A stretch of DNA of 64,000 bases from an uncultured Phascolarctobacterium sp. (GTDB taxonomy: Bacteria > Bacillota > Negativicutes > Acidaminococcales > Acidaminococcaceae): the NCBI GenBank assembly GCA_947630795.1, contig CANRJC010000008.1, forward strand, positions 1 to 64,000, given 5' to 3'. A model generated the notes under the pieces. The model saw only the letters and a program-made list of their open reading frames with translations. It was not told the DNA's origin and searched no databases. The position numbers and the translations under genes were made by a program. Below are positions 24,596-57,779 of this stretch, piece after piece. Within the stretch, counting starts at the first letter, position 1; every line of letters starts with the position of its first letter.

Positions 24596-25690
24596 TTAAG
24601 ATGTGTAAATGGCGTCCAGAAATTCGTTGAACAGTTCTTCCGGTGTGCGGTATCCCAGTTTCTTTCGATGCCTAGCTGTTCAGCAGGTCTAAAGCTATCA
24701 GGATGTCCTCATCGGTGTATGTTTCCAGAAAGGCTCCCTTTGGGACAAATGCTCGGAACAGACTATTGTGGCATTCGTTCTGTGCTCTCTCCCAAGAAGT
24801 ATATAGATGAGCAAAGTATACCTTTGTACCGTACTGCTCTGCTTGAAAGAAATCTGCGAACTCGGAGCCGTTGTCCACCGTAATGGTTTTGAATATATCG
24901 GAGAAAAGCGGTCCGAATTCTTCCCAGAGATTGACGATGGCGTTTATCACATTGCGGCTGGTTTTCCAAAGTACGTGGATAGAGATATAGTTATTCGTTA
25001 GCTTCTCCAACAAGGTGAGGATAACAGCTTTCTTTCCTGATCGTCTGCCGACAACGATATCACCCTCCCAGTGACCAGTCTCGGTTCCAGCCACCACAAT
25101 TACAAAGCGCTCGGAAATACTTATGCCGTAATACCTCTTACCTTCTCTGACCCTATACTTCCTGCTCTTCCGTTTAACCGCCTCCAGCATTCTATCATAT
25201 GTATCTGCAATTTTCGGTCCAAATCATATTGTATAGGGTATGAGTGTAAACCATCTTATCGACAGAAAACAGACCATGTTTTTTGCGTAACCGTAGCAGT
25301 CATCTAAAGACCGCTTTTTTCTCGCTCCTTCTTTACCAGCCAGCTAAGGAATTTACCGCACTGTTGCCCTTTGCTGTGCATGTGGCAAATTGCCCGGTGT
25401 TCTAGGTAGACTCCCTCTCCCAGTTTTGCAGAATAATTTGGATGTAGCTCCTTGTTATTCTTGCGGGGCGGAATGCCTCGCTTCAACTCATTGGCAACTG
25501 TACTAGGAGAGCACTCGATGCTTCGAGCCATAGCTATGTTGGAAAGTCCATGATGCTTTAATACCTGAATAGCGCCTCGATCTTCTCTGCAAAAGTGCTG
25601 TCCCCTCTTGCGTTCTGACAGAGATGTGATACAAGAGTGGCGGTTTATATTGATTGTCTCCTAATAGTAGATGGTTTTTGTTTATATTCA
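24596..25690 (-). pseudogene. Decayed IS30-family transposase
   Basis: Pieces of one IS30 transposase lie in order but in different frames. The N-terminus (SLSERKRGQHFCREDRGAIQ, then GLSNIAMARSIECSPSTVAN) is the IS30 helix-turn-helix. A middle piece (HGLFSVDKMVYTHTLYNM) sits in another frame near 25,230-25,290. The catalytic core (ETGHWEGDIVVGRRSG, then TVDNGSEFADF) spans 24,672-25,190. After LDLLNS* a one-base shift restores RHRKKLGYRTPEELFNEFLD to the stop at 24596. The expected ATG region reads ATC/ATA. At least three frameshifts make it inactive. Clear terminal inverted repeats were not found by eye. Confidence 0.85.
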
Positions 25691-25856: not shown

Positions 25857-25943
25857 GCCGAAGTGGCGGAATTGGCAGACGCACTTGACTCAAAATCAAG
25901 CGGTCTTGCGACCGTGCCGGTTCGAGTCCGGCCTCCGGCACCA
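25857..25943 (+). tRNA. tRNA-Leu (anticodon CAA)
   Basis: 87 nt with encoded CCA. The anticodon stem CTTGA/TCAAG holds the loop CTCAAAA (anticodon CAA). There is a long variable arm and a T arm GCCGG-TTCGAGT-CCGGC. The acceptor stem GCCGAAG/CTCCGGC has one A-C mismatch (5:68), where E. coli has A-U. The tRNA is the boundary between chromosome and prophage, and the mismatched base lies in the 3' half, which a phage would supply on integration. Confidence 0.95.
25919..25943 (+). other. Probable left attachment site in the tRNA 3' end
   Basis: Phage genes start right after the tRNA, and tRNA 3' ends are classical targets of tyrosine integrases. The core should lie within the T arm and 3' acceptor strand. 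The matching right site and the integrase are not in the window, so the core length is unknown. Confidence 0.55.
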
Positions 25944-29419: not shown

Positions 29420-29563
29420 TCACCCCCTCAGCTTCTCGCGTTCTTCCTCGACCGCCTTGATTTCTGCTTCATATGCAGTCACCGCCTTGTGCTGTTCCAG
29501 CTCGTTCACCAATAGGCGGATAAGACGGCCTTGCCGTTCTATCAAGTCTGCCAGATCATTCAT
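29420..29563 (-). CDS. Small phage coiled-coil protein
   Basis: 48 aa starting MNDLADLIERQGRL, a single charged helix. Its ATG overlaps the previous stop (ATGA), so it is translationally coupled. Short helical proteins at this place after the tail-fibre module are common in Firmicute phages; the function is not known. Confidence 0.65.
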   Translation of the reverse strand: MNDLADLIERQGRLIRLLVNELEQHKAVTAYEAEIKAVEEEREKLRG

Positions 29564-29808
29564 TCGTATATCCTCGCTGTCTGCGGCTGTGCGTCAAGCT
29601 CTTTTATCTGCTCCTTCAGGCGGTCTATCTCATCTCGCCATGCTTGCCGCTTTTCGTGAAGCTCGTTCACATTATATGGCATCGGTGCGCCTATAAGATA
29701 AGACTCGTAGCATTTAATTACTTTCCAGTCGCCGTATTCGGAAACAGGCGATGTCAGATAGCTTGTCAGGTCGAAAATTCTCTGTTGGAGCTGTTCTCTT
29801 TCGTCCAT
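29560..29808 (-). CDS. Small phage tail-region protein
   Basis: 82 aa: heptad-rich ends with a central segment EYGDWKVIKCYESYLIGAPMPYN. The pattern matches small proteins often found just after tail-fibre genes in Firmicute prophages. It overlaps the end of the reverse transcriptase gene by 43 bp in another frame, suggesting that the DGR genes sit in front of an older fibre-accessory gene. Confidence 0.65.
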   Translation of the reverse strand: MDEREQLQQRIFDLTSYLTSPVSEYGDWKVIKCYESYLIGAPMPYNVNELHEKRQAWRDEIDRLKEQIKELDAQPQTARIYE

Positions 29809-30998
29809 ATTCTCATCTCCTTTTTGAACGTCTTTTGAAAAAGCCGTTTGATTTTATAAAGTTTTGCCCTGCTGTGAAACTTCCTGTAAGAGCCTAGCCA
29901 GCCGCTGAAGCAGTTTAGAATGTGAGAAAAATCCATGCGCCCTTGTTCCAAAAGGCAGCGGTAGGTCGTTATTCTTCGCCTGCCTCGGCGAATGGTGCTT
30001 GAATGTACTCTTTTAATGATTCGTCCTGTGTCGGTCAGGGTGTAGTTGACCTTCAAAAAAGTGTGCGTGCGACGAATGGGCCTTATCGTTGTTTTCTTTT
30101 TATTGACGAATATTCCCAGCCGCTTACAAATGCGCTCTACCTCTTGAAGCCTTGCCTCGGCCTCGGCTCTGCCATTGGCGATAAGGTATAGGTCGTCCAT
30201 ATACCTGCCGTAATATTTCATGCTCTTAACGATTTTGATATAAGTATCGATCTCGTTCGGGTAGAATATCCCGCATATCTGCGATACATGGAAGCCCACA
30301 CCCAAAGACTTTGCCGCCATTTTATCTTGCGTTGCAATGCGGAGTTTTCTCAGCTCCACGCTGTTCAGGACAATGTTGTTGATGCTTTTAAATTCTTCAT
30401 CGCTTAAATGTGACACATTCAACTTGAAGCTATCCACCGTTTGCTCTACAAAGGCCATAGCCCCTGCGTCAAGACATCGCCGAAACTGGGTCTTGCAAAC
30501 ATCGTGAAGGATGTTGTCAAAATATTTGCTGAAGTCCACTTGTACCACATAGGCATTTTCTCCGTATTCTTTGTACGCTTTTTGCAGGTGAATGGCAAAA
30601 CGCTTTCTGCCTCGACTCGTCCCCCGCTTTTTCAAACTTGCCCAGTTATCATAAATCAATCTCGGGGCGATGATGGGCTCCAACACATTATCATTGAAAG
30701 AGCGTTGGGCTACCCTATCTCTTATGGGCTGCGCTCTTATCAATCGTTCCCGCCCTCTTTCGTGCAGGATAAAATTTTGCGTGTCTTGTTGTTTATAAGT
30801 TCCGCTCAAGAGTTCTTTTCGGAGCTTGCAAATATTGAGCAATAAATTAGATTCAAAGCGTTGCACGCTCTCTTTCCAGCCTGTTTCTTTTTTCGCCATT
30901 TGAAAAGCAGACAAAAGGGAATTTGCGTCCGCCACTTTTTCAATTTGCCCAACGCTCCCGACGGCGTTTATAGTATTACTGTTCGTAAACAAATACAT
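29766..30998 (-). CDS. DGR reverse transcriptase
   Basis: About 410 aa. RT motifs: catalytic Asp in VVQVDFSKYFDNI (about 152-164), LGVGFHVSQICGIF (about 232-245) and YGRYMDDLYLIANG (about 264-277). The VGFHVSQ string fits the [ILV]GxxxSQ motif that marks DGR reverse transcriptases rather than group II intron or retron enzymes. A basic C-terminal thumb follows (from RRTHTFLKVNYTL). It copies the template RNA with adenine errors to make the cDNA for the variable repeat. ATG 30998 lies 5 nt from AAGG; a GTG at 31001 is the alternative. Confidence 0.95.
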   Translation of the reverse strand: MYLFTNSNTINAVGSVGQIEKVADANSLLSAFQMAKKETGWKESVQRFESNLLLNICKLRKELLSGTYKQQDTQNFILHERGRERLIRAQPIRDRVAQRSFNDNVLEPIIAPRLIYDNWASLKKRGTSRGRKRFAIHLQKAYKEYGENAYVVQVDFSKYFDNILHDVCKTQFRRCLDAGAMAFVEQTVDSFKLNVSHLSDEEFKSINNIVLNSVELRKLRIATQDKMAAKSLGVGFHVSQICGIFYPNEIDTYIKIVKSMKYYGRYMDDLYLIANGRAEAEARLQEVERICKRLGIFVNKKKTTIRPIRRTHTFLKVNYTLTDTGRIIKRVHSSTIRRGRRRITTYRCLLEQGRMDFSHILNCFSGWLGSYRKFHSRAKLYKIKRLFQKTFKKEMRIWTKENSSNREFST

Positions 30999-31085
30999 CA
31001 CCGCCTTGGTGTTCCCCTGTTAAGGGCAGGGTCGATTCTCCTTATTTGCGGCAGTCACAGCAGCGACGGCTAAAAGACTGTCCAG

Positions 31086-31203
31086 ATAATCGGGCGCACG
31101 CCATTGAGGTTGGAAGCGTTGTTCGTATTGGCATCGCCGTTGTTGTTGACATTAGCGAACGCCGTACAGGAAGCCACAGCGGTGAGCCAGAAGGGGCAGC
31201 GCG
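31086..31203 (-). repeat. DGR template repeat (TR)
   Basis: 118 bp that align without gaps to 31832-31949 (offset 746). On the coding strand 24 template bases are A; 16 of them differ in the variable repeat. Of the other 94 bases only 4 differ (31107, 31149, 31162, 31168). In the frame of the target gene the template reads nine Asn codons (AAY), the usual DGR design. It lies in the spacer between the Avd-like and RT genes and should be the core of a template RNA. Confidence 0.95.
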
Positions 31204-31230
31204 CATGTTATAGAATCGGCCCTTGTATCG

Positions 31231-31803
31231 TTATTGAGAAGTTTTCTTTTTAATTGCCTGCAATATTTTATTACCTGATTTCTTCCAGCCTTTTAAGAGT
31301 TCAAGCTCTTTTTGTATCAGCTCTACAAACGGCATATATTTGTTTGCGTCGACAGGCAAATCATCTATCGCCGCTTGAAAGGTCTGTAAAAGCTGATAGC
31401 AGGTCGCTATCGCCTTTGACTGAAATTGCCGTCGAAATTCCCATTCCTTCTCGGTCGAAGGATATATCGAATTGGCAAACACGATACTGTCAAGTAAATC
31501 GTATAAATTCTTCAACGTCCTTTCTCTGTAATGCTCTACCAACCACAGAGGAAATTCCGCTTCAACATCTATTCCGTATTTTTGGCATAATGAGAAGAAG
31601 GCTTCCTTATCTTCTTCGTTGAATTTTGCCGCTCTCGAAAACACTCTTAAGTCTCTCAGAGTGTTTTTCACGCCAAAGTCTCTCAGCAAAAGTTTTACAA
31701 GCCTTCGTCGCAGTTTGTAATAAGTGTTCAAAAATTCCAACTTAGACTGCGACCGCTCTCCGGCAGGAACGCTCAATTTGACCACCTTCTTCCTCCGCCG
31801 CAT
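31231..31803 (-). CDS. Avd-like DGR accessory protein with N-terminal extension
   Basis: 190 aa. The C-terminal about 115 residues are all-helical and fit the four-helix Avd/bAvd family, ending with a basic ELELLKGWKKSGNKILQ segment. Avd forms a barrel that binds RT and template RNA. Common Avd proteins are near 120-130 aa; here about 70 extra residues (from KLEFLNTYYKLRRRLVKLLL) precede. The ATG at 31803 lies in the loop of a hairpin; a GTG at 31785 after AGGA is an alternative start. Assignment rests on position plus helical pattern. Confidence 0.75.
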   Translation of the reverse strand: MRRRKKVVKLSVPAGERSQSKLEFLNTYYKLRRRLVKLLLRDFGVKNTLRDLRVFSRAAKFNEEDKEAFFSLCQKYGIDVEAEFPLWLVEHYRERTLKNLYDLLDSIVFANSIYPSTEKEWEFRRQFQSKAIATCYQLLQTFQAAIDDLPVDANKYMPFVELIQKELELLKGWKKSGNKILQAIKKKTSQ

Positions 31804-31813
31804 GAAGCGGCGG
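31795..31813 (-). promoter_or_regulatory. Hairpin/cruciform downstream of the variable repeat
   Basis: A perfect 7-bp GC stem, CCGCCGC/GCGGCGG, with a 5-nt loop, starts 18 bp past the end of the variable repeat. DGR targets need such a hairpin or cruciform for efficient retrohoming (shown for BPP-1). It also contains the Avd ATG, so it could affect Avd translation. Confidence 0.7.
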
Positions 31814-31818
31814 GATTG

Positions 31819-33321
31819 CTAGTTAATTACAATAAGCGGGCGCACGCCAGTGGGGGAGGAAGCGAGGCTCGCAGCGGCATCGCCGCTGCCGTAGGCAGCA
31901 GCGAACGACGTACGGGAAGCCACAGCGGTGAGCCAGAAGGGGCAGCGCGGATGATGCGGGTCATGCCACCACCAGCCCTTGAATCTGAAGAAGGGCAGTT
32001 GACTTGCTGCGTGGCAGTTGTCGTAATAGTGTGATGCGGCAATTGCGCCGCCGTAGACCTGCGCCTCGGTCATCAGAGTGACTTTTGCGTCGCTCCACGC
32101 AGTTGCAGAAGAAGCTCCGGGCCACCCGCCGTTTCCGCCCGCAGGGGCGGTGGCGTTCACCGCTGTGGTGAGCCGCACTCTGCGCTGCACTAAGTGCGCG
32201 CCGAGAATGGAAAGATAGCGGGTAATGAAACCCCATTTATCGATTTCCCCTTCCCCTGGCGCTTCGCTGTTGAGCCATTGATGAAGCTCGCTTTTTGCAT
32301 ATCCGCCCTCTGAGGTGTTGGTGGAGTTCATGCGGCGGAGGAGGCGTTTCTCGCTGTCGGTGTTGCTTTCCGTTTTATCCCAAAGAATCCCATGGGGGAT
32401 AAGCGAAAGGTGGTGTGTCGTCGTAGACGGTCCTTGGTCGCCTCTGCGAAACTCAGTATCAAAGCCCGCAATCTGCCAGTCTTGAAGGCCGTCTATTTCA
32501 TTAGCGTAAATCTGAATAATGTTCCCGACTTTCAAGTCGCCGTAATCGCCTTGCTTGATTTTGTAAGTGTTGGAAAAGTCATCAACATCTTTGGAACTGT
32601 TCAAGGTAGCGACCACTTTTTCTTCAAAGTAAGAGTTGTGGTCGTAGGGTAAGCCCAACGCCTCTAAGAGCTGTCGAACGTTCGGGTTTGCCAAGCCGCC
32701 CGAAAGAGCCTGCTGAACGGTCGCCCAGCTCCCCCCGCCTGTCAGGACTTTGTTTTGCTCGCCCGCTTTGGGGGCGGGAACGTAGCCTCTTGCTCCGGCT
32801 TCCTCGGCGGTAGCGCCGTCAAAATCTTCAATTTCCAAGCTCTCAACGATCGTTTGAATATTCTCGGCATATCTTTCCGCATTTGCCGCAGAGCTGGCGG
32901 CGGCGGCGGTGTTTGCTTCGGCGCTTTCGGCGGCATTGGCGGCGTTTTGCGCTGCTTTGGAAGCGGTGCTTGCGGCACTAGAGGCGGTTTCTGCCGCCTG
33001 TTGCGCCTTGGCAGAAGCTCCTTTTGCGCTGTTCGCCGCCTCGAGTGCGGTGTCTGCCGCTTCTTTTGCATCCTCGCCCGCCTGTTGTGCTCTTCCTGCG
33101 GCTTTTTGAGATTCTCGCGCCGCTTTCTCTGCATTTTGCGCCGCTTCTCTTGCGGCGGTGCTTGCTTGCTGAGCGGCGTTGGCGGCTCCTTGCGCACTTT
33201 CAATCGCTACAACAATGCGCTCCCCCATGTCGTTAATGGCGTCCTCGGTTTGCTGTTCGAACGCCTTGCCGCTAAGTTTCCCCTCTAAGGGTTGATATTG
33301 GAATTTGCTATATTCGCTCAT
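31819..33321 (-). CDS. DGR target: tail-fibre protein with variable C-terminus
   Basis: 500 aa. A short N-terminal tail-attachment part is followed by an Ala/Glu-rich trimeric-coil-like stalk (about 40-165), a linker, then a globular receptor domain (about 240-500), probably of the C-type-lectin/formylglycine-enzyme fold used by DGR targets. Residues about 458-497 (from RCPFWLTAVAS to GVRPL) are the variable repeat, exposed at the end of the domain. The variable region should decide host-receptor choice. AAAGGAG precedes the ATG. The stop lies 11 bp past the variable repeat. Confidence 0.93.
   Translation of the reverse strand: MSEYSKFQYQPLEGKLSGKAFEQQTEDAINDMGERIVVAIESAQGAANAAQQASTAAREAAQNAEKAARESQKAAGRAQQAGEDAKEAADTALEAANSAKGASAKAQQAAETASSAASTASKAAQNAANAAESAEANTAAAASSAANAERYAENIQTIVESLEIEDFDGATAEEAGARGYVPAPKAGEQNKVLTGGGSWATVQQALSGGLANPNVRQLLEALGLPYDHNSYFEEKVVATLNSSKDVDDFSNTYKIKQGDYGDLKVGNIIQIYANEIDGLQDWQIAGFDTEFRRGDQGPSTTTHHLSLIPHGILWDKTESNTDSEKRLLRRMNSTNTSEGGYAKSELHQWLNSEAPGEGEIDKWGFITRYLSILGAHLVQRRVRLTTAVNATAPAGGNGGWPGASSATAWSDAKVTLMTEAQVYGGAIAASHYYDNCHAASQLPFFRFKGWWWHDPHHPRCPFWLTAVASRTSFAAAYGSGDAAASLASSPTGVRPLIVIN
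31832..31949 (-). repeat. DGR variable repeat (VR)
   Basis: The 118-bp copy of the template at the 3' end of the fibre gene. The nine template Asn codons read A, Y, G, S, A, S, L, S and T here. The GC-rich 3' end (GGCGTGCGCCCG) is identical in both copies and should be the initiation-of-homing region. Confidence 0.95.
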
Positions 33322-33332
33322 TGTTTGCTCCT

Positions 33333-34178
33333 TTAGAAGAAAATGAACAGTAGGTTGATGGATCTCGGACGTCCGGAAGGTAGGCTTTTGTAAGTTGTAT
33401 TAACGTTCATTTGTGTGCCTGCCGCAATATTGGCAGTAAAAGTAGCGATGTCCGAGCCGGTATGCGTTTCGCTGTGACCATATTTATCGTGCGAAATTCC
33501 AAAAGACGAAGATAAGCTGACCGACGTGCCGCCTTTCCATGATAAAGTGATTGTGCTGGTGTGTGTTCCATTCTCCTTACCGGTCTGACCGAAATTCGTG
33601 TCTTGAAAACAAATAAAGCCTTTGCAATTGATGGGGACGGTTATCTGCCCGCTCCCCTTTCCGTTAATGGGTGTAATTTTTAAGGCCACGGCGCTGGTGA
33701 CGCTTTTCTTTACTTCCTCGATAGCCGCTTGCAATTCTTTTTTTGCCGCGGCAAGTTCATCTTCTATATTCTTTTTGGTTGGTGCTCCGATGTAATCTAA
33801 AAGCGCCACCCAATAATTGGCATCCGTGCCAGGCGTTTTTGCCCCGCCCTGCGTTGGGCCGTTTGCTTTTTTGCAAACATAAAGAACATTATTATACATA
33901 ACCATGGCAGGGACGGGATAATCTATACTATCTTGCCATGTAAACAATCCGCCCGATTGTGCCCAGAAAGCAAAATTTGATAGCCAAAACAAAATACCAT
34001 TAAAGTCTTGCCTTTGCGGAGGCAGCCCGCCATTGATTATAGGTTGCTCAGTTATTGCGGGGAAGCCATCTTTTAAAGACGCAAGCCCACTTTCAGCCGA
34101 AGCTATTTCGGGTATGATGTTTTTGCTTCCCGAATTGGCAAAAGGTTGCTTCATTACTTGCGGCAAAGTCGGTAACAT
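33333..34178 (-). CDS. Tail-fibre-like protein
   Basis: 281 aa. The N-terminal part (MLPTLPQVMKQPFANSG, then FNGILFWLSNFAFWAQSGG) is typical of phage tail-fibre or tail-needle proteins attached to baseplates, with VLYVCKKANG as a repeat-like fibre motif. The C-terminal 100 residues are Ser/Thr/Gly-rich beta structure. It starts on the last base of the preceding stop, and the DGR target follows 11 bp later, so the two may form one fibre complex. Confidence 0.75.
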   Translation of the reverse strand: MLPTLPQVMKQPFANSGSKNIIPEIASAESGLASLKDGFPAITEQPIINGGLPPQRQDFNGILFWLSNFAFWAQSGGLFTWQDSIDYPVPAMVMYNNVLYVCKKANGPTQGGAKTPGTDANYWVALLDYIGAPTKKNIEDELAAAKKELQAAIEEVKKSVTSAVALKITPINGKGSGQITVPINCKGFICFQDTNFGQTGKENGTHTSTITLSWKGGTSVSLSSSFGISHDKYGHSETHTGSDIATFTANIAAGTQMNVNTTYKSLPSGRPRSINLLFIFF

Positions 34179-34842: not shown

Positions 34843-36033
34843 TTACTTCTCCATGGCGATCTCTATATCCGCTGCGCTTAATACAGGCATTTTGTCAAGC
34901 GGTATTTCTACTTCGCTTTTCAGATCTCCGTTTTTGGGGTATGCTATCGTTACGCTTCGCAAGGTTTCATGCCCTGCGTCGATGATATGCTTATAAAATC
35001 TTGAAGCGTAAACAGTATCGCCCATTTTTACACGCGGATAGTCGGAATATTCGCCGTTAAAATTAGCGAGGATGATTCCTTTGATTTCTGCCGCCGCTTC
35101 CTCAGTCGGACTTCCTTCGCCGTCTAAAATTACTTTGACTTTAACGGCCTCTGCCGTTGGAGTCTGATAATAGTATATTTGTTCAGTAGAATTAACTTCA
35201 TCTAAAAATTCAACTTTTGTATTCCCGGCCGTCCCGCACCCTGCATCAAGTTTTTCATGCATAACTTTGCCTATTTCCAACTGGTCTCCGCCATAGACCG
35301 ACAAATAAACAGAATGGCTCGGTATGCTAACGCCTTTTTTTGTAACCGGGTCATTCGTTCTGTTTTGTTCTATTTTACAGGCTACGACACCGGCAAGATT
35401 ATTTACCGTTCCTTCTACAGCTTCGGCAAGCCCATGCGCATTTTTCGCAACGCTCGCGGCCCGCCTTGCTTCAAACTCCGATTGTGTTTCTTGCTCTCTA
35501 CCGGTCAAGCCCGGGCTTTTATTTGTTACGCTGTCCCAGCCGGGAATAACGGTGATGATCTTATTTACAGCCCCTGCATCTACAACGATCGTTCCGTAAA
35601 CGCTGCAACGAAAGAGGCATTCACAAGTGCCGTCTTCGCCGATCGTTGCCCCGATAACCTTATTGTAAAAAGTGTGCCCTTGCTCATCTTGCACTATTGC
35701 TCCATAGGGTATAACCGTGCCTTGTAAGCCCCTGCACTCTACGGTCACCATGGTGGGCTGCTCTATTTTTCGTTCTAAGAAGTAAACTTTTCCTAAAGCA
35801 TCTTGGAAAAGCCCTGTTGCGCCCGCCGGATTAAAGGAATTTGCCAATTTTAAAATTTCTGCGTCTTTTTCAGCCACCAAAGCGGCCATGCCATCAATAA
35901 GCTGCCCTGCGGGGGTTTCAGGGTCAGTATTTAAATCCCCGCCAAAAGCTTCTCGCCATTGAGTCGCAATGGCTTCTCTTATCTCTCCTGTATCCTGTAC
36001 TTTTAATCCTTTTTCGGGTGCAAATTCGATCAT
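34843..36033 (-). CDS. Baseplate J-like protein
   Basis: 396 aa of the baseplate J/gp47 family: IREAIATQWREAFGGDLNTDPETPAGQLID at the N-terminus, then GATGLFQDALGKVYFL and TGREQETQSEFEARRAAS. It forms the wedge of a contractile-tail baseplate. It directly follows the gp25-like gene, the usual order. Confidence 0.93.
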   Translation of the reverse strand: MIEFAPEKGLKVQDTGEIREAIATQWREAFGGDLNTDPETPAGQLIDGMAALVAEKDAEILKLANSFNPAGATGLFQDALGKVYFLERKIEQPTMVTVECRGLQGTVIPYGAIVQDEQGHTFYNKVIGATIGEDGTCECLFRCSVYGTIVVDAGAVNKIITVIPGWDSVTNKSPGLTGREQETQSEFEARRAASVAKNAHGLAEAVEGTVNNLAGVVACKIEQNRTNDPVTKKGVSIPSHSVYLSVYGGDQLEIGKVMHEKLDAGCGTAGNTKVEFLDEVNSTEQIYYYQTPTAEAVKVKVILDGEGSPTEEAAAEIKGIILANFNGEYSDYPRVKMGDTVYASRFYKHIIDAGHETLRSVTIAYPKNGDLKSEVEIPLDKMPVLSAADIEIAMEK

Positions 36034-41323: not shown

Positions 41324-42814
41324 TTACAATACAGCAGTAACAGGAAGATTGATTTTATGAACGCTGCCGCCGTAGGTGTACCACAGGCCGCAAATCGGGC
41401 TTTCGCGTTCCGCTCTTACGCTCGCCCCCGGGTCGCTCACTTGCAAATAATAACCATCAGTGAAAATTTGGCTTGCGACATCTTCGCCGATCTCAGCGTA
41501 AAGCTCGGCCTTTTGCGCTTCACTCAATTCAACGCCCGGCTCTATTGCTCCGTTGGTCAACGCCCTGTTAATGGGGTCTGCGCACCATGCACGAATGAGC
41601 GTATAGCCCTCATCCGTATATGGAACACGCCCGCTTTGATTCAGCCCTTCTATGATTGCTACTTGCAAGGCGTTTCTGATCCACAAGTTGCCGAGGAAAG
41701 CGTCTACAAACTCAAACTGGCCGCTGATCATTTTACCTTGATAGTAGAAAATGAAATCATCGTTGCGGGTCGCATACCGCCCATAAAAGTTGGCGTTCAT
41801 CTCCAAAAGGTTGCTTGCGGCGATTTCGTCAATAACACTTGCGTTCAATCCGCTCTGCGATTTAAAAGCGAAAGTAACAAGCCCATTCGTCCTGTCCCAA
41901 TCAATAGACGCGGCGATCGCCATTACTAAAACGGCGTGGTCTACATCGCCGAAAGTCAAAATAACACCCTCGGGCTTGCTTTCTGCAAGCTTGTGCGGCA
42001 AGTTCTCTTGATTAGTTATGTTGCTATCCGCTTCTTTCTCCGTCCAAGGGCAATAAAGATATTCTACATTTTGATCGTTTGCCCATTTCGCAAAGCCCAG
42101 CGCCACCTCGTCTTCTGCGCTTTCCAACGTGGTAAAACTTACCCAATTGGTCTGCAAAGCGATAATGCTGTTCATGTTTTCTTCGGGACTCAGCTCATCG
42201 CTGCCCTTGGAAACAACAGCCCCCGCTTCAGTCGTCAAGCCCAGTGTGGTTGCCGCATCGCTCTCATCGGCGGGCAAAACTGCCGAAGTCGCCCCGGTCG
42301 TCCCCGAAGTTACTATATACGCATTTAAATTACTATTGTAAACAGCCGTAACATTGCCGCTATCTGCTTTGTTCAAAGCTTCTGCCAGAGCTTTGGCTAC
42401 ATCGCTTTCGTTACTGCAGCTGCCGAAGTTCAAAGATTCGGCGGTCACGTCTTTGCCGTCAACGGAAAGTTTTACGCTCCCTGCGCTGATTTCCTTCAGA
42501 TCTTCCAGCGGCGCAGCCGTTCCCCCTAACAACGCTCCGGCGATAGCTGTTTTCACAAGCCGTGCAAAATGCAAACGGCGAGGCTTTTTAAAGCTGTTAT
42601 CGTATCCCAGAAAATACTTCACAGCTGCCAAATATTCTTTGCTATCCAGCCCGAAGTATGCTCCGACAGCGGCTTTCGAGGTAAAAGCCAAAGTGCCCGG
42701 GAAAACGCACAAGGGGTTTTCAGTCAAAATAAGTCCCGAAATTTCCAAGTCGGTGCCGCCTGCGCTTATAACTCTAGGCGAAATGGTAACAATTTGACTT
42801 GCGGGAATTGCCAT
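41324..42814 (-). CDS. Tail sheath protein (DUF3383 family)
   Basis: About 496 aa with the DUF3383 pattern (PASQIVTISPRVISAGGTDLE, later GYTLIRAWCADPINRALTNG and AERESPICGLWYTYGGSVH). It forms the contractile sheath and proves a myovirus-like tail. ATG 42814 is preceded by AAAGGAG. The middle (about 125-230) is a Ser/Ala-rich beta insertion, probably surface exposed. Confidence 0.87.
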   Translation of the reverse strand: MAIPASQIVTISPRVISAGGTDLEISGLILTENPLCVFPGTLAFTSKAAVGAYFGLDSKEYLAAVKYFLGYDNSFKKPRRLHFARLVKTAIAGALLGGTAAPLEDLKEISAGSVKLSVDGKDVTAESLNFGSCSNESDVAKALAEALNKADSGNVTAVYNSNLNAYIVTSGTTGATSAVLPADESDAATTLGLTTEAGAVVSKGSDELSPEENMNSIIALQTNWVSFTTLESAEDEVALGFAKWANDQNVEYLYCPWTEKEADSNITNQENLPHKLAESKPEGVILTFGDVDHAVLVMAIAASIDWDRTNGLVTFAFKSQSGLNASVIDEIAASNLLEMNANFYGRYATRNDDFIFYYQGKMISGQFEFVDAFLGNLWIRNALQVAIIEGLNQSGRVPYTDEGYTLIRAWCADPINRALTNGAIEPGVELSEAQKAELYAEIGEDVASQIFTDGYYLQVSDPGASVRAERESPICGLWYTYGGSVHKINLPVTAVL

Positions 42815-42819
42815 TTTTA

Positions 42820-43332
42820 TCACTCCTTTATTTTATGATGGGCATCAATATTTTCAACGGTCGCCCTAACGTTTTCAGCATATTCTTCCGCCACATTCAC
42901 CTCATCCCAAGCCGTTAAATACAAACTGACACGGCAACGGTGAATGTATTGTTCGGTTAGATCCACATAAGGCAAATAAGATATATCCGTTGCGTAGTTC
43001 AACGCAATGTTTCTTTTCTCAAAGAATCGAGCGGCTATATAAGAGCGCCCAAGCGTGGCTATTGTTGCCGCTCGCATTCTTGCTTTCTCTTGCCTGATAT
43101 TGCAAAAGTCTATATCGAATACGTATTGGCGCAGGGTTTTTGTTTTAACTTCATCTCTGCCCCATTCGTTGACGTTCGTGCCGATCCTCTCGGCATTCGC
43201 CAAAGAATACACGGTAAAGTCTTGCGATTCCGGCAAAGATAATCTATTTGAATATCCCCGGAAAAGGCGTTCCTGCGTCACCCCCGGGGCATATTTTAAA
43301 ATAAAATCATTGACCGCCGTAAACATCTTCAT
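42820..43332 (-). CDS. Phage tail-completion/neck protein, LIC12616-like
   Basis: About 170 aa; it overlaps the previous gene by 26 bp. Start 43332 follows GGTGGG. The phrases FILKYAPGVTQERLFRGYSN and YVFDIDFCNIRQEKARMRAA are seen in neck or tail-terminator type proteins placed just before sheath genes. The exact role is not established. Confidence 0.6.
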   Translation of the reverse strand: MKMFTAVNDFILKYAPGVTQERLFRGYSNRLSLPESQDFTVYSLANAERIGTNVNEWGRDEVKTKTLRQYVFDIDFCNIRQEKARMRAATIATLGRSYIAARFFEKRNIALNYATDISYLPYVDLTEQYIHRCRVSLYLTAWDEVNVAEEYAENVRATVENIDAHHKIKE

Positions 43333-52986: not shown

Positions 52987-53754
52987 TTACACCCCTCGCA
53001 ACGGTATTTTAATAATAGGGTTGTAATCAAATATTCTCTTACTGTTCTTGTCGATTCGTACAATATCTTGTCCCCATTTTTTCTGAAGTAAGGCTAGCTG
53101 CTCTTTTTCTTTTTTCATTGTCCGAATGCTTGCGCACCCGCCCTTTTGCTCACTTTGGCGTACTATGTAACTTAAAAAATTAACTCTAAGGCACCCACGA
53201 TATTTGTTGCATTGTTGCAACGTCATATCATAATCTTCTTTTAACGGCAATCTCTCATCATACAATAATTCATTCCTTTTTATAAACGCCTGAAATGGCC
53301 CGCCTAAATATGCGGAAAAGGAAAGCGGTATTGTATTCTTATATGCCCTAGGCTCTTTTGTGCAATTTACGCCCCACATTTTAAAGCCCAAATCACGGCA
53401 AACTTCACTGTATTTTTGTATAATTTCATAAATCTCTTCGCTTTTTAATGACCTCTGCGCCATTTTCGCTGGGTCGTCTTTATCCTGTTCCCATATCAAA
53501 AATTTCTGGTAATCATCATCAACAATAATTACGGCTTCTGCTTCATTTTCAAATTCTTTTTTCAATATATAATTGCGGATTCTGCATAAATTCCCCTGAA
53601 CCCCCTTAGGGCAAGAAACAATCGTTGCTCTTAGGTTCTGCCTTTTGTATTCATCAGCTTCAGCTTCATCTACATATACCTTGGCATAGGGCATTAACTT
53701 TAGCGTTTCTACTTTCGGTCTTTTGTAGCTTGGTATGCATATGCTGATATTCAT
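52987..53754 (-). CDS. TET-associated-type glycosyltransferase (TAGT-like)
   Basis: 255 aa of GT-A fold: ISICIPSYKRPKVETLKL, a GNLCRIRNYILKK helix, the metal-binding VIIVDDDYQKFL and SAYLGGPFQAFIKRNELL, then KEDYDMTLQQ. The pattern fits the TAGT family described in phages, thought to add sugars to modified DNA bases. No TET/JBP dioxygenase is visible in this window, so the acceptor is unclear. The ATG overlaps the ParB-like stop (ATGA), so the two are coupled. Confidence 0.7.
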   Translation of the reverse strand: MNISICIPSYKRPKVETLKLMPYAKVYVDEAEADEYKRQNLRATIVSCPKGVQGNLCRIRNYILKKEFENEAEAVIIVDDDYQKFLIWEQDKDDPAKMAQRSLKSEEIYEIIQKYSEVCRDLGFKMWGVNCTKEPRAYKNTIPLSFSAYLGGPFQAFIKRNELLYDERLPLKEDYDMTLQQCNKYRGCLRVNFLSYIVRQSEQKGGCASIRTMKKEKEQLALLQKKWGQDIVRIDKNSKRIFDYNPIIKIPLRGV

Positions 53755-54969: not shown

Positions 54970-57693
54970 TCACTCCGTTAAATCCGTAACTTTGCATCCA
55001 AAGAGGTCTGCCATTCTGATTAGCGTGCTGGAGCGTAGCGCTGCCGGCTCGCCTCTTATGACTTTCCACAGCGTCCCCGTTTTGGCGCTTTCTCCATAAA
55101 TCGCTTTTACGGCAGCGCCTGTACTTAGCCCGCTTTCTTCAAACTTCGCTCGTATCTTCTCGGGCGAATATCGTCCGTGTTCTTGCAACTCACCGCCCTG
55201 CTGCACTATCGTCTTATGGCAAGGCTTTCTCCAATCTTCAGGGTTATGGCGATACACCCTTATCACCGCGCTAACGCTCGGCGGTAATCCCACGATTGCT
55301 CTTTTGGCGGCTTCTAAATAATTTGTCGCCGTCACCCAAAAGCTGTCATTGATGTCATTTGTCAGCAAAAAGATTTTATACCTGCGCTCGTTCGACTTCG
55401 GTTTCGGCAGTTCTTCTTGCTTCGGCATTACGATGCGTTTTTTCGGCACCTGTTTTTTCATCTGCTGTTTCGGCGGCACCACATTCTTTTTCAGCGTGCC
55501 GCCTCTCGCCAATCTTACCAATATCGGCTCGCCCTGCTTCGGCGTGCCGCCTCTCACCATGAATGGCTCACCTGCGAACGGCAACGCCGCCAATTTCTTG
55601 CTCGCCTCTTGCGCTTTCCAAAAATCAGCGCACGGCACCCGCCAAGCTTGCCCTTGATTGAATGTGTCTCTGCCCAGACCGTAGGCCACTATCGCCACCC
55701 CCCCATAATTCCCTGCGGGGTTAGGAGCAAAAGCCTCTAGCGTCCTGCTGGTGTCCGTCTCATACACATTAGCTCGGCTGTTTATCGTGCCCTCACTTGT
55801 GAACCTTACATCGTAGGTACGAACAATCAACGGCCGATTGTTGCCGCTGGTTCCAAGGAAACTGGTGAGACTTGGGGAGATGCCTTTCTGGTCTGTGTAT
55901 CGGCTATCTAAACTGTGGTTTTCAAAGATTTCAACTGCGCTTCCAGAGCCATTTTCAACAGAGGCGGGAGCGGTTTGTTCTTTGCAGCTGCCCTTCGCAG
56001 TATTCCTTGGCAAGCCGTACTCGTCAAATAATATCTTGGGGGCGGATTGTCCTCTAAAATCTGCGACAAGAAAGATGCGCTTGCGTCTTTGGGGTACTCC
56101 CCAATACTGAGCGTCAAGTAGTCTCCAGGCAACCGAGTAACCGTCTGCCATGATTGCCCCTGCTGGCGGCCACTTCTTAGGTCTAGGAACATGAGCCCCT
56201 TTGTCGCAGACTTTGCAGAAGGCTTCAAGGACTTGTCGGAAGTCCTCTCCCCCATGGGAACTTCGGCTTCCGTCAACATTTTCCCAAACAGCGAATCTTG
56301 GATATACTCCATTTGTGGCCTCCCTCATTTCCTCAACAATGCGGACGGCCTCAAAAAACAGCCCGCTTCGTGATCCTTCCAGCCCTGCCCGCTTTCCGGC
56401 CAGTGATAAGTCTTGACAGTTGTGAACGACAATACCTTCTGCAATATAGCTTTGGTCATCTTCCACAGCAATGTTGTACACAACAATAGCCGTTCTCCCT
56501 TCTCTCACATCTCGCACCTTATAGTAACTGTGTAGGTCGTCATGATAATGCACTCGGGTTTTCGATTTTGTTAAGGCCACTTGATAATTATCATGTATTG
56601 AGCAAGGTCTTCCCTCTATCGTGCAAGTCCCCTTAGCAACGGTCTTGTATACGGTGCTTGAATAGCCCAGCGTTTCTCCCAAAAGACGAATACCATGAGC
56701 CAAAGCCTTGCTGCTTGTGCTTATTTTGAATTTATCCGGAGCAAGCCGCCACCCATCAGAGTCTATCAAGCCTTTAAGCAATGCAACTCTGTACTCTTTC
56801 GCCATACCTAAGGCCCACGCAGGAAGTCGTTTCCCCAATGCCCCATGTCCGAAGTTATCAACTAACCATTTGCACAAAACCTGCGAAGTGAATTTAACTT
56901 TCGTGCAGGTTCGCTCTACGCTTACAGAATATTTCTTCGATAGCGGAGCGATAGTTGCTATAATCTCATCTGCTTTATCGTGAGAGTCGCAAAGGAAAAT
57001 CGTGTTAAAGGTTTGCCCTGCCGGTCTGTCGGGCCGTTGTCCCGTTCTCACATACCCATCTCCTAGCCATCTTCCGACAAAATAAAACAATTGCTCAGAA
57101 ATAGGTGGCATTTCCTTTTGGTGTGCGTTCACCGTTCTCTCTATGGGTATCGTTAAGTCGGGAATATTCAGCGGAACGGCCCATAACTTACCTCTCATGT
57201 TCCCCGCCGGGAACCAAGCCGATTTGGACAAAGAAGTCTTATACCCTCTAGGGCGGGTACCCCATTTGCGAATTAGGTAAGCCGCATATATGGGATGATT
57301 CGCCGTACATTCCAGCCCGTAATGATTTCCCTTTAACACGATTGTGTCGGCAGTTTTGCGCCCGCTTGCAATAACCTTCTTCCATCGGCTTTTATGCGTC
57401 AAAACCATATCGCCTACTTTGACTTCCTCGATAGGTTTGTACCCTTCGGCGGTCAATACCAATGTACCGGCGGGGAAGCATGGGCTGCCGAACGTCACCA
57501 CATCCACGGGTCGCAATTTGCCGCCGTGGATCTTCGCCACATCGCCCAAATGTTTCATGCCGGGAAAGCGTTTGCGTGTGACTTTAATGGGGAACGGCTC
57601 AACTTCGCTCGCATATATCGGCGTTATGCCCTGCCTCTGAGCCGCCAAAGGGAAGCCCCCCGAGCCGTCAAACAGGCTCATCATCGTCAACAT
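54970..57693 (-). CDS. C5-cytosine DNA methyltransferase interrupted by an intein
   Basis: About 907 aa before splicing. Motif I SLFDGSGGFPLAAQRQG, motif IV GSPC/CQDLSLAGKRAG, motif VI WENVDG and motif VIII QRRKRIFLVAD are present. An intein of about 354 residues splits motif IV. After splicing about 553 aa remain. The usual motif IX/X end (an RxLTxxExxRLQGFP-type stretch) is not visible; instead there is a Lys/Pro-rich linker (about 735-775) and a C-terminal helix-turn-helix-like part (from SPEKIRAKFEESGLSTGAAV). The start is ATG 57693 after GGGGG, with GTG 57699 as alternative. Confidence 0.88.
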   Translation of the reverse strand: MLTMMSLFDGSGGFPLAAQRQGITPIYASEVEPFPIKVTRKRFPGMKHLGDVAKIHGGKLRPVDVVTFGSPCFPAGTLVLTAEGYKPIEEVKVGDMVLTHKSRWKKVIASGRKTADTIVLKGNHYGLECTANHPIYAAYLIRKWGTRPRGYKTSLSKSAWFPAGNMRGKLWAVPLNIPDLTIPIERTVNAHQKEMPPISEQLFYFVGRWLGDGYVRTGQRPDRPAGQTFNTIFLCDSHDKADEIIATIAPLSKKYSVSVERTCTKVKFTSQVLCKWLVDNFGHGALGKRLPAWALGMAKEYRVALLKGLIDSDGWRLAPDKFKISTSSKALAHGIRLLGETLGYSSTVYKTVAKGTCTIEGRPCSIHDNYQVALTKSKTRVHYHDDLHSYYKVRDVREGRTAIVVYNIAVEDDQSYIAEGIVVHNCQDLSLAGKRAGLEGSRSGLFFEAVRIVEEMREATNGVYPRFAVWENVDGSRSSHGGEDFRQVLEAFCKVCDKGAHVPRPKKWPPAGAIMADGYSVAWRLLDAQYWGVPQRRKRIFLVADFRGQSAPKILFDEYGLPRNTAKGSCKEQTAPASVENGSGSAVEIFENHSLDSRYTDQKGISPSLTSFLGTSGNNRPLIVRTYDVRFTSEGTINSRANVYETDTSRTLEAFAPNPAGNYGGVAIVAYGLGRDTFNQGQAWRVPCADFWKAQEASKKLAALPFAGEPFMVRGGTPKQGEPILVRLARGGTLKKNVVPPKQQMKKQVPKKRIVMPKQEELPKPKSNERRYKIFLLTNDINDSFWVTATNYLEAAKRAIVGLPPSVSAVIRVYRHNPEDWRKPCHKTIVQQGGELQEHGRYSPEKIRAKFEESGLSTGAAVKAIYGESAKTGTLWKVIRGEPAALRSSTLIRMADLFGCKVTDLTE
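56419..57480 (-). mobile_element. Intein with LAGLIDADG homing endonuclease in methyltransferase motif IV
   Basis: Block A CFPAGTLVLTAEGYKPIEEV with Cys1, block B GLECTANHPIYA (TxxH), endonuclease blocks FVGRWLGDGY and LLKGLIDSDGW (each with the catalytic Asp), block F VYNIAVEDDQSYIAEG and block G VVHN followed by Cys+1. All splicing residues are intact, so it should splice. The +1 Cys is the methyltransferase's own catalytic cysteine. Confidence 0.95.
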
Positions 57694-57779
57694 AGCCACG
57701 CCCCCAATGCCAGCAGGAAGCCGAATACCACCGCCGTCACGATGCAGGCTATCTTAAACTCCAGAAGCCAATCGTCCAT
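57687..57779 (-). CDS. Very small membrane protein
   Basis: 30 aa starting MDDWLLEFKI, with one membrane helix (ACIVTAVVFGFLLALGAWL). It overlaps the start of the methyltransferase gene in another frame. Ribosome site weak (AAGGAGGCAAGTAAACC, about 10 nt). Function unknown. Confidence 0.5.
   Translation of the reverse strand: MDDWLLEFKIACIVTAVVFGFLLALGAWLC

Follow-up and report, generated by a model that had tools for sequence, protein, structure and literature searches.

What kind of element joins two near repeats to a reverse transcriptase (RT) gene in the first 64,000 nucleotides of contig CANRJC010000008.1 from an uncultured Phascolarctobacterium sp. (hereafter the window), and by what signal would it find its target? 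An earlier note on this DNA described an "active-type" diversity-generating retroelement (DGR) in a prophage. The evidence makes it highly probable that the locus is a complete DGR in a prophage, predicted from its sequence and by analogy with the DGR of phage BPP-1 to use mutagenic retrohoming to vary the receptor-binding tip of a probable tail fibre. A hairpin after the variable repeat, a feature beyond the earlier account, differs from its BPP-1 counterpart in its loop.

Repeats and genes of the cassette

The template repeat (TR, 31086-31203) and the variable repeat (VR, 31832-31949) are two near repeats 746 bp apart, with minus as the coding strand. Realignment reproduces the gapless 118-nt pair first noted and its strong bias, with 16 of 24 template A changed in the VR against only 4 of 94 other bases (Fisher one-sided p = 1.1e-10). 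A repeat search extends the match to 31207 and 31953, giving a 122-nt pair (31086-31207 and 31832-31953) in which 16/25 A and 5/97 other bases differ. All nine template AAY codons are changed, as had been seen before, and all five non-A differences alter the encoded residue. The 3′-end of the VR carries a GC-rich block like that for initiation of mutagenic homing (IMH; 31837-31849, minus strand), which is identical in the TR (31091-31103) and is followed by an A in the TR (31090) and a C in the VR (31836). Five of the 10 relatives listed with a pair have this same A and C here, and the difference probably represents a fixed IMH*/IMH mark, which leaves 15 of 23 template A changed. Of six matches in a search of the window's own genome only two, the TR and VR themselves, were strong (the other four had E >= 0.056), and no second DGR target was found there.

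The minus-strand order of target gene with VR, hairpin, avd, TR and RT gene is, as the earlier note held, that of BPP-1, where the record gives mtd with VR, avd, TR and brt. The target gene (31819-33321, minus) predicts a 500 aa protein with an alanine-rich N-terminal part and a C-terminal, putatively C-type-lectin-like domain that ends in the VR. A DUF6273 match fell below cut-off, and the structure model of the domain resembles C-type lectins; Mtd and TvpA chains were not among its matches, which excludes nothing. The avd gene (31231-31776, minus; 181 aa) most likely starts at TTG 31776 rather than ATG 31803. Its product had no match in a Pfam search, and its designation as Avd-like is borne out by a match to PHROG 3206 "Avd protein of DGR" (E 8.7e-7) and by a model that overlays BPP-1 Avd (structures 4dwl_D and 8ub8_C). 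The RT gene (29766-31001, minus) predicts 411 aa from a GTG, with an ATG following at 30998, and includes the VGFHVSQ and YMDD motifs already recorded, which fit the DGR patterns xGxxxSQ and YxDD. In a quick tree, built without rows for retrons or defence-associated RTs (DRT), the predicted RT groups with those of BPP-1 and other TR/VR-bearing loci, apart from four QGGxxSP RTs. The frames of RT, avd and target are open, and Rfam gave no match in 29500-33500.

If this cassette works as BPP-1 does, RT with Avd would reverse-transcribe the TR transcript, placing random bases opposite A, and the resulting cDNA would take the place of the VR beside the IMH block and hairpin. This would alter the nine Asn codons, together with a few more, in the putative C-type-lectin-like domain, leaving the scaffold fixed.

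Variation in relatives and the state of the window copy

An A-biased TR/VR pair was present in 106 of the 131 loci examined, the other 25 being without a pair. When the best pair per locus is summed over the 106, 1598/3108 template A and 105/8033 other sites differ, a ratio that is partly built in because the pair search demanded 65% of mismatches at A. Closely related cassettes are also informative. Six of the 68 listed pairs of loci with near-same TRs (L033/L040, L029/L106, L060/L063, L046/L047, L109/L110 and L034/L107) match over the 300 nt upstream of the VR with no more than one difference, and yet their VRs differ. Summed, they differ at 82/147 template-A sites, 4/441 other sites and 1/1800 flank sites, and these sequences fit adenine-specific variation; seven other near-same-TR pairs have zero differences. 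The RTs of L029, L106, L109, L110, L034 and L107 share 42-46% identity with the window RT. The expectation in the earlier note that repeats in related genomes would differ at template A is borne out by sister pairs of relatives; for the window target itself there was no strain-level copy, the six best of 16 matches showing 34-36% identity across 54-55% of the query.

An RT match was found in 29 of 200 genomes, the window's own included, and not all of these matches are DGRs. Six other loci among the 29 belong to the same family as the host and all have an A-biased TR/VR pair, with only 4 mismatches in L022. The DGR RTs of same-family genomes (G016, G025, G027, G029, G046 and G053) stand in several distant places in the tree, and this scatter indicates that DGRs entered the host family more than once. 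Variant arrangements were seen among the relatives, with two VRs per single TR in the same locus in L037 and L118, and a VR after the TR and RT rather than before them in L098 and L101. One DGR RT match (L009, G154:C42) contains one in-frame TGA.

A helix after the TR also appears in relatives. An anchored scan of the 100-nt stretch following the TR found a helix of at least 5 bp in 19/26 loci (e.g. L138, L139, L111 and L130) versus 193/650 with swapped arms, and an AAGGA-like box then follows it. RNAalifold on a MAFFT alignment of the post-TR stretches returned 0 pairs, and a free helix scan gave no clear gain over shuffles (30/32 native versus 2423/3200 shuffled). The helix possibly corresponds to the RT-Avd-binding spacer RNA of BPP-1 described in passages of PMC12875486.

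The explanation that best survives beside a complete, diversifying DGR is that the element is decaying, having once diversified its target but no longer homing, so that the VR now drifts. We consider this unlikely, since the RT gene, avd and the target gene have open frames with the RT motifs intact, the hairpin and IMH-like block are present, and so are the prophage genes and attachment (att) repeats. Two observations nevertheless favour decay. The non-A mismatch fraction of the window (5/97) ranks 2 of 106 cassettes, for which the median is 0, and all five of these differences change a residue; further, the anchored rule detected no post-TR helix of the relatives' kind in the window. So the window TR/VR pair is either intact without being fresh or more error-prone than its kin. 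The term "active-type" can be kept for the intact parts, and recent homing of this copy is unsupported because of the high non-A fraction and the lack of a strain-level copy of the target.

Hairpin loop class at the target site

The hairpin (31795-31813, minus; CCGCCGC-TTCAT-GCGGCGG; z -3.3 against shuffles) lies between the target stop codon and the avd start. Its 7-bp stem is all G/C and agrees with the GC-rich stems of 7-10 bp that follow the VR in DGRs of the BPP-1 type; its loop, TTCAT, has 5 nt and is not the 4-nt GRNA loop of that type. The same search applied to BPP-1 as a control gave a GAAA loop. Guo et al. 2011 (PMC3240598, passages) found that BPP-1 homes efficiently only with a GC-rich inverted repeat after the VR. 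The phage DGRs in that comparison had stems of 7-10 bp with GRNA loops of 4 nt, and in BPP-1 a CTTT loop or two added loop bases lowered activity to near background. Hairpins of archaeal DGRs have GRA triloops, according to passages of PMC4372165.

Hairpins were found after the VR in 75/106 loci versus 51/2120 random places. Removal of near-duplicates left 63 cassettes including BPP-1, 44 with a hairpin and 19 without. Loops of 5 nt (30) and 6 nt (6) together account for 36/44 hairpins, and 27 of these 36 end in a purine followed by T (RT in base code, [AG]T); the remaining 8 have 4 nt, 6 of them GRNA. Five-base loops make up 30/44 hairpins after the VR versus 106/697 elsewhere in the same loci (p 6e-14), and 22/30 of the former versus 9/106 of the latter end in [AG]T (p 5e-12). 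All loops of five bases (29) or six (6) whose cassettes have an RT row in the tree belong to a single set of 46 rows (SH-aLRT 98), which also includes two GRNA loops (L040 and L135) and two other 4-nt loops. Outside this set, BPP-1, L141, L017 and L018 have GRNA loops.

The relationship between loop class and RT side was then examined in held-out loci, with the prediction fixed before the new loci were collected. Four new window-side RT queries and one from BPP-1 yielded 180 new loci, of which 28 without a pair, 82 near-duplicates and 3 without a side were set aside and 67 were kept. The 41 on the window side have 30 hairpins, 22 with 5-6-nt loops (16 of the 22 ending in [AG]T), 6 with 4 nt (3 GRNA), one with 7 nt and one with 8 nt. 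On the BPP-1 side, 26 loci have 20 hairpins, 18 with 4-nt loops (16 GRNA), 2 with 3 nt and none with 5-6 nt. The prediction held (22/30 versus 0/20 with 5-6-nt loops; Fisher p 1.3e-7). The commonest loop is CTTGT in the held-out window-side hairpins (9/30) and TTTAT in the discovery set.

Position between the target stop and the avd start, together with GC-rich stems, would also suit a terminator or a control of avd expression, and the loop class would then be uninformative on homing. A T-tract follows only 1/43 hairpins, making a terminator unlikely, and both the location of the hairpin at the BPP-1 homing-hairpin site and the way loop class follows RT lineage count against either role, which we regard as distinctly improbable. 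Our reading, based on sequence comparison, is that the five-base loop would represent a second, lineage-specific homing-site code, and that the machinery of the window lineage would recognise a hairpin whose loop has 5 nt and mostly ends in [AG]T, and not a GRNA tetraloop. More tentatively, and at slightly less than even confidence, we propose that there may be at least two orthogonal homing-site codes. One would be the GRNA tetraloop of the BPP-1 side, and the other, used by a large phage lineage including the window prophage, would combine a C-rich 5′ arm with a five-base loop (CTTGT or alike, ending in [AG]T) that would be recognised by the lineage's own RT/Avd complex, in which Avd has an extra helical insert.

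Longer open reading frames (ORFs) between the repeats accompany 5-6-nt loops (36 versus 6, p 6e-4; held-out 22 versus 18, p 7e-5). No causal role is claimed for Avd length, because ORF length and loop class both follow RT lineage and because between-repeat ORFs span 148-210 aa in the six window-side cassettes of the held-out set whose loops have 4 nt.

Two further explanations dispense with a DGR. Gene conversion or recombination between repeats so near one another could vary a tail gene without reverse transcription, but this is very improbable given that differences are concentrated at the A of one copy (p 1.1e-10), that a DGR-type RT and Avd adjoin the repeats and that relatives show the same A bias. 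That the RT is of a defence or group II type beside coincidental repeats is scarcely credible, as its weak NCBIfam matches to group II, DRT and retron RT models are all far below cut-offs (best 72.8 of 300 bits) and the DGR motif and tree position contradict it.

Prophage, host and relationship to known systems

The DGR lies in a 42.5 kb prophage bounded by a 56-bp direct repeat. The left att repeat (25888-25943, plus) is the 3′ part of a tRNA-Leu gene (25857-25943), and its partner lies beyond the window, at 68304-68359 of the contig. An integrase (contig 66994-68172), an S24 repressor (contig 65513-66154), a contractile tail sheath (41324-42823, minus) and a baseplate J-like protein (34843-36033, minus; profile matches) were found, along with terminase, portal, protease, major head protein, tape measure, amidase endolysin and holin-like genes. 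The att repeats, integrase, repressor, sheath, baseplate and head genes are those of a contractile-tailed temperate phage, as the earlier note had concluded. A neighbouring gene of the cassette (33333-34178, minus) has tail-fibre PHROG matches. Six peptide patterns from the baseplate gene detected no relative in viral contigs, and phage records gave no nucleotide match and RT identities of at most 33% among the best 20 of 55 matches.

Other genes in the window include a 909-aa C-5 cytosine DNA methyltransferase ORF (54970-57699, minus) split by an apparent intein, with Hint and LAGLIDADG between the methylase stretches. A TET-associated glycosyltransferase (TAGT) gene (52987-53754, minus) adjoins a ParB-like gene and this methyltransferase, and perhaps serves phage DNA modification. 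A transposase with an rve domain (24672-25190, minus) is directly beside the tRNA-Leu end of the prophage.

Host genes of lipopolysaccharide type, namely a KpsF/GutQ (kdsD-like) isomerase, an O-antigen ligase domain and a protein matching Kdo transferase (below cut-off) and LpxK (above cut-off), support the diderm host originally suggested. They are consistent with its suggested class, a probable Negativicute, which is not proven as no 16S was found.

The window DGR shares with that of BPP-1 (NC_005357; PMC3240598) the target-VR, avd, TR, brt order, A-specific TR/VR differences (18/25 A among 22 differences in the annotated BPP-1 repeats), the Avd fold and a GC-rich hairpin after the VR. It differs in its 5-nt TTCAT loop (4-nt GAAA in BPP-1), a 181-aa Avd with an extra helical stretch, a distant RT and target, and a different host. 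DGRs in phages of Firmicutes from the gut and Treponema from the rumen (among them L106 Clostridium sp., L111 Lachnospiraceae and L118 Treponema ruminis) are closer, sharing RT lineage, a long Avd, a C-terminal target domain and mostly a hairpin with a 5-6-nt loop, though their RTs are about 36-46% identical, their hosts are others and most have fewer non-A differences than the window. The putative C-type-lectin-like domain with its VR recalls the hypermutated one of the DUF6273/C-lec tentaclins described in passages of PMC10743442; there the domain is N-terminal, before immunoglobulin-like domains, whereas in the window it is C-terminal on an alanine-rich fibre-like protein. A lineage-specific loop class is shared with archaeal DGRs, whose 3-nt GRA loop, in the passages of PMC4372165, lies inside the target gene, whereas the 5-nt loop of the window follows it.

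As a prophage DGR the element is ordinary. One survey, in the passages of PMC8144416, reports >30,000 DGRs (its main text has no mention of hairpins), and the host family and class hold others. The literature searched (mostly listings and passages, without supplements and subscription papers) named no DGR of the host class and no five-base hairpin loop. To that extent the earlier suggestion that this copy had not been described holds, although DGRs are not rare in its relatives, as the 29/200 genomes with an RT match indicate. Novelty is claimed only for the loop class, on the basis of the literature searched. Loop classes that differ by lineage would imply divergence in how DGRs recognise their targets. 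Loop class is also a marker by which annotators may separate the two lineages, and makes it testable which component reads the loop.
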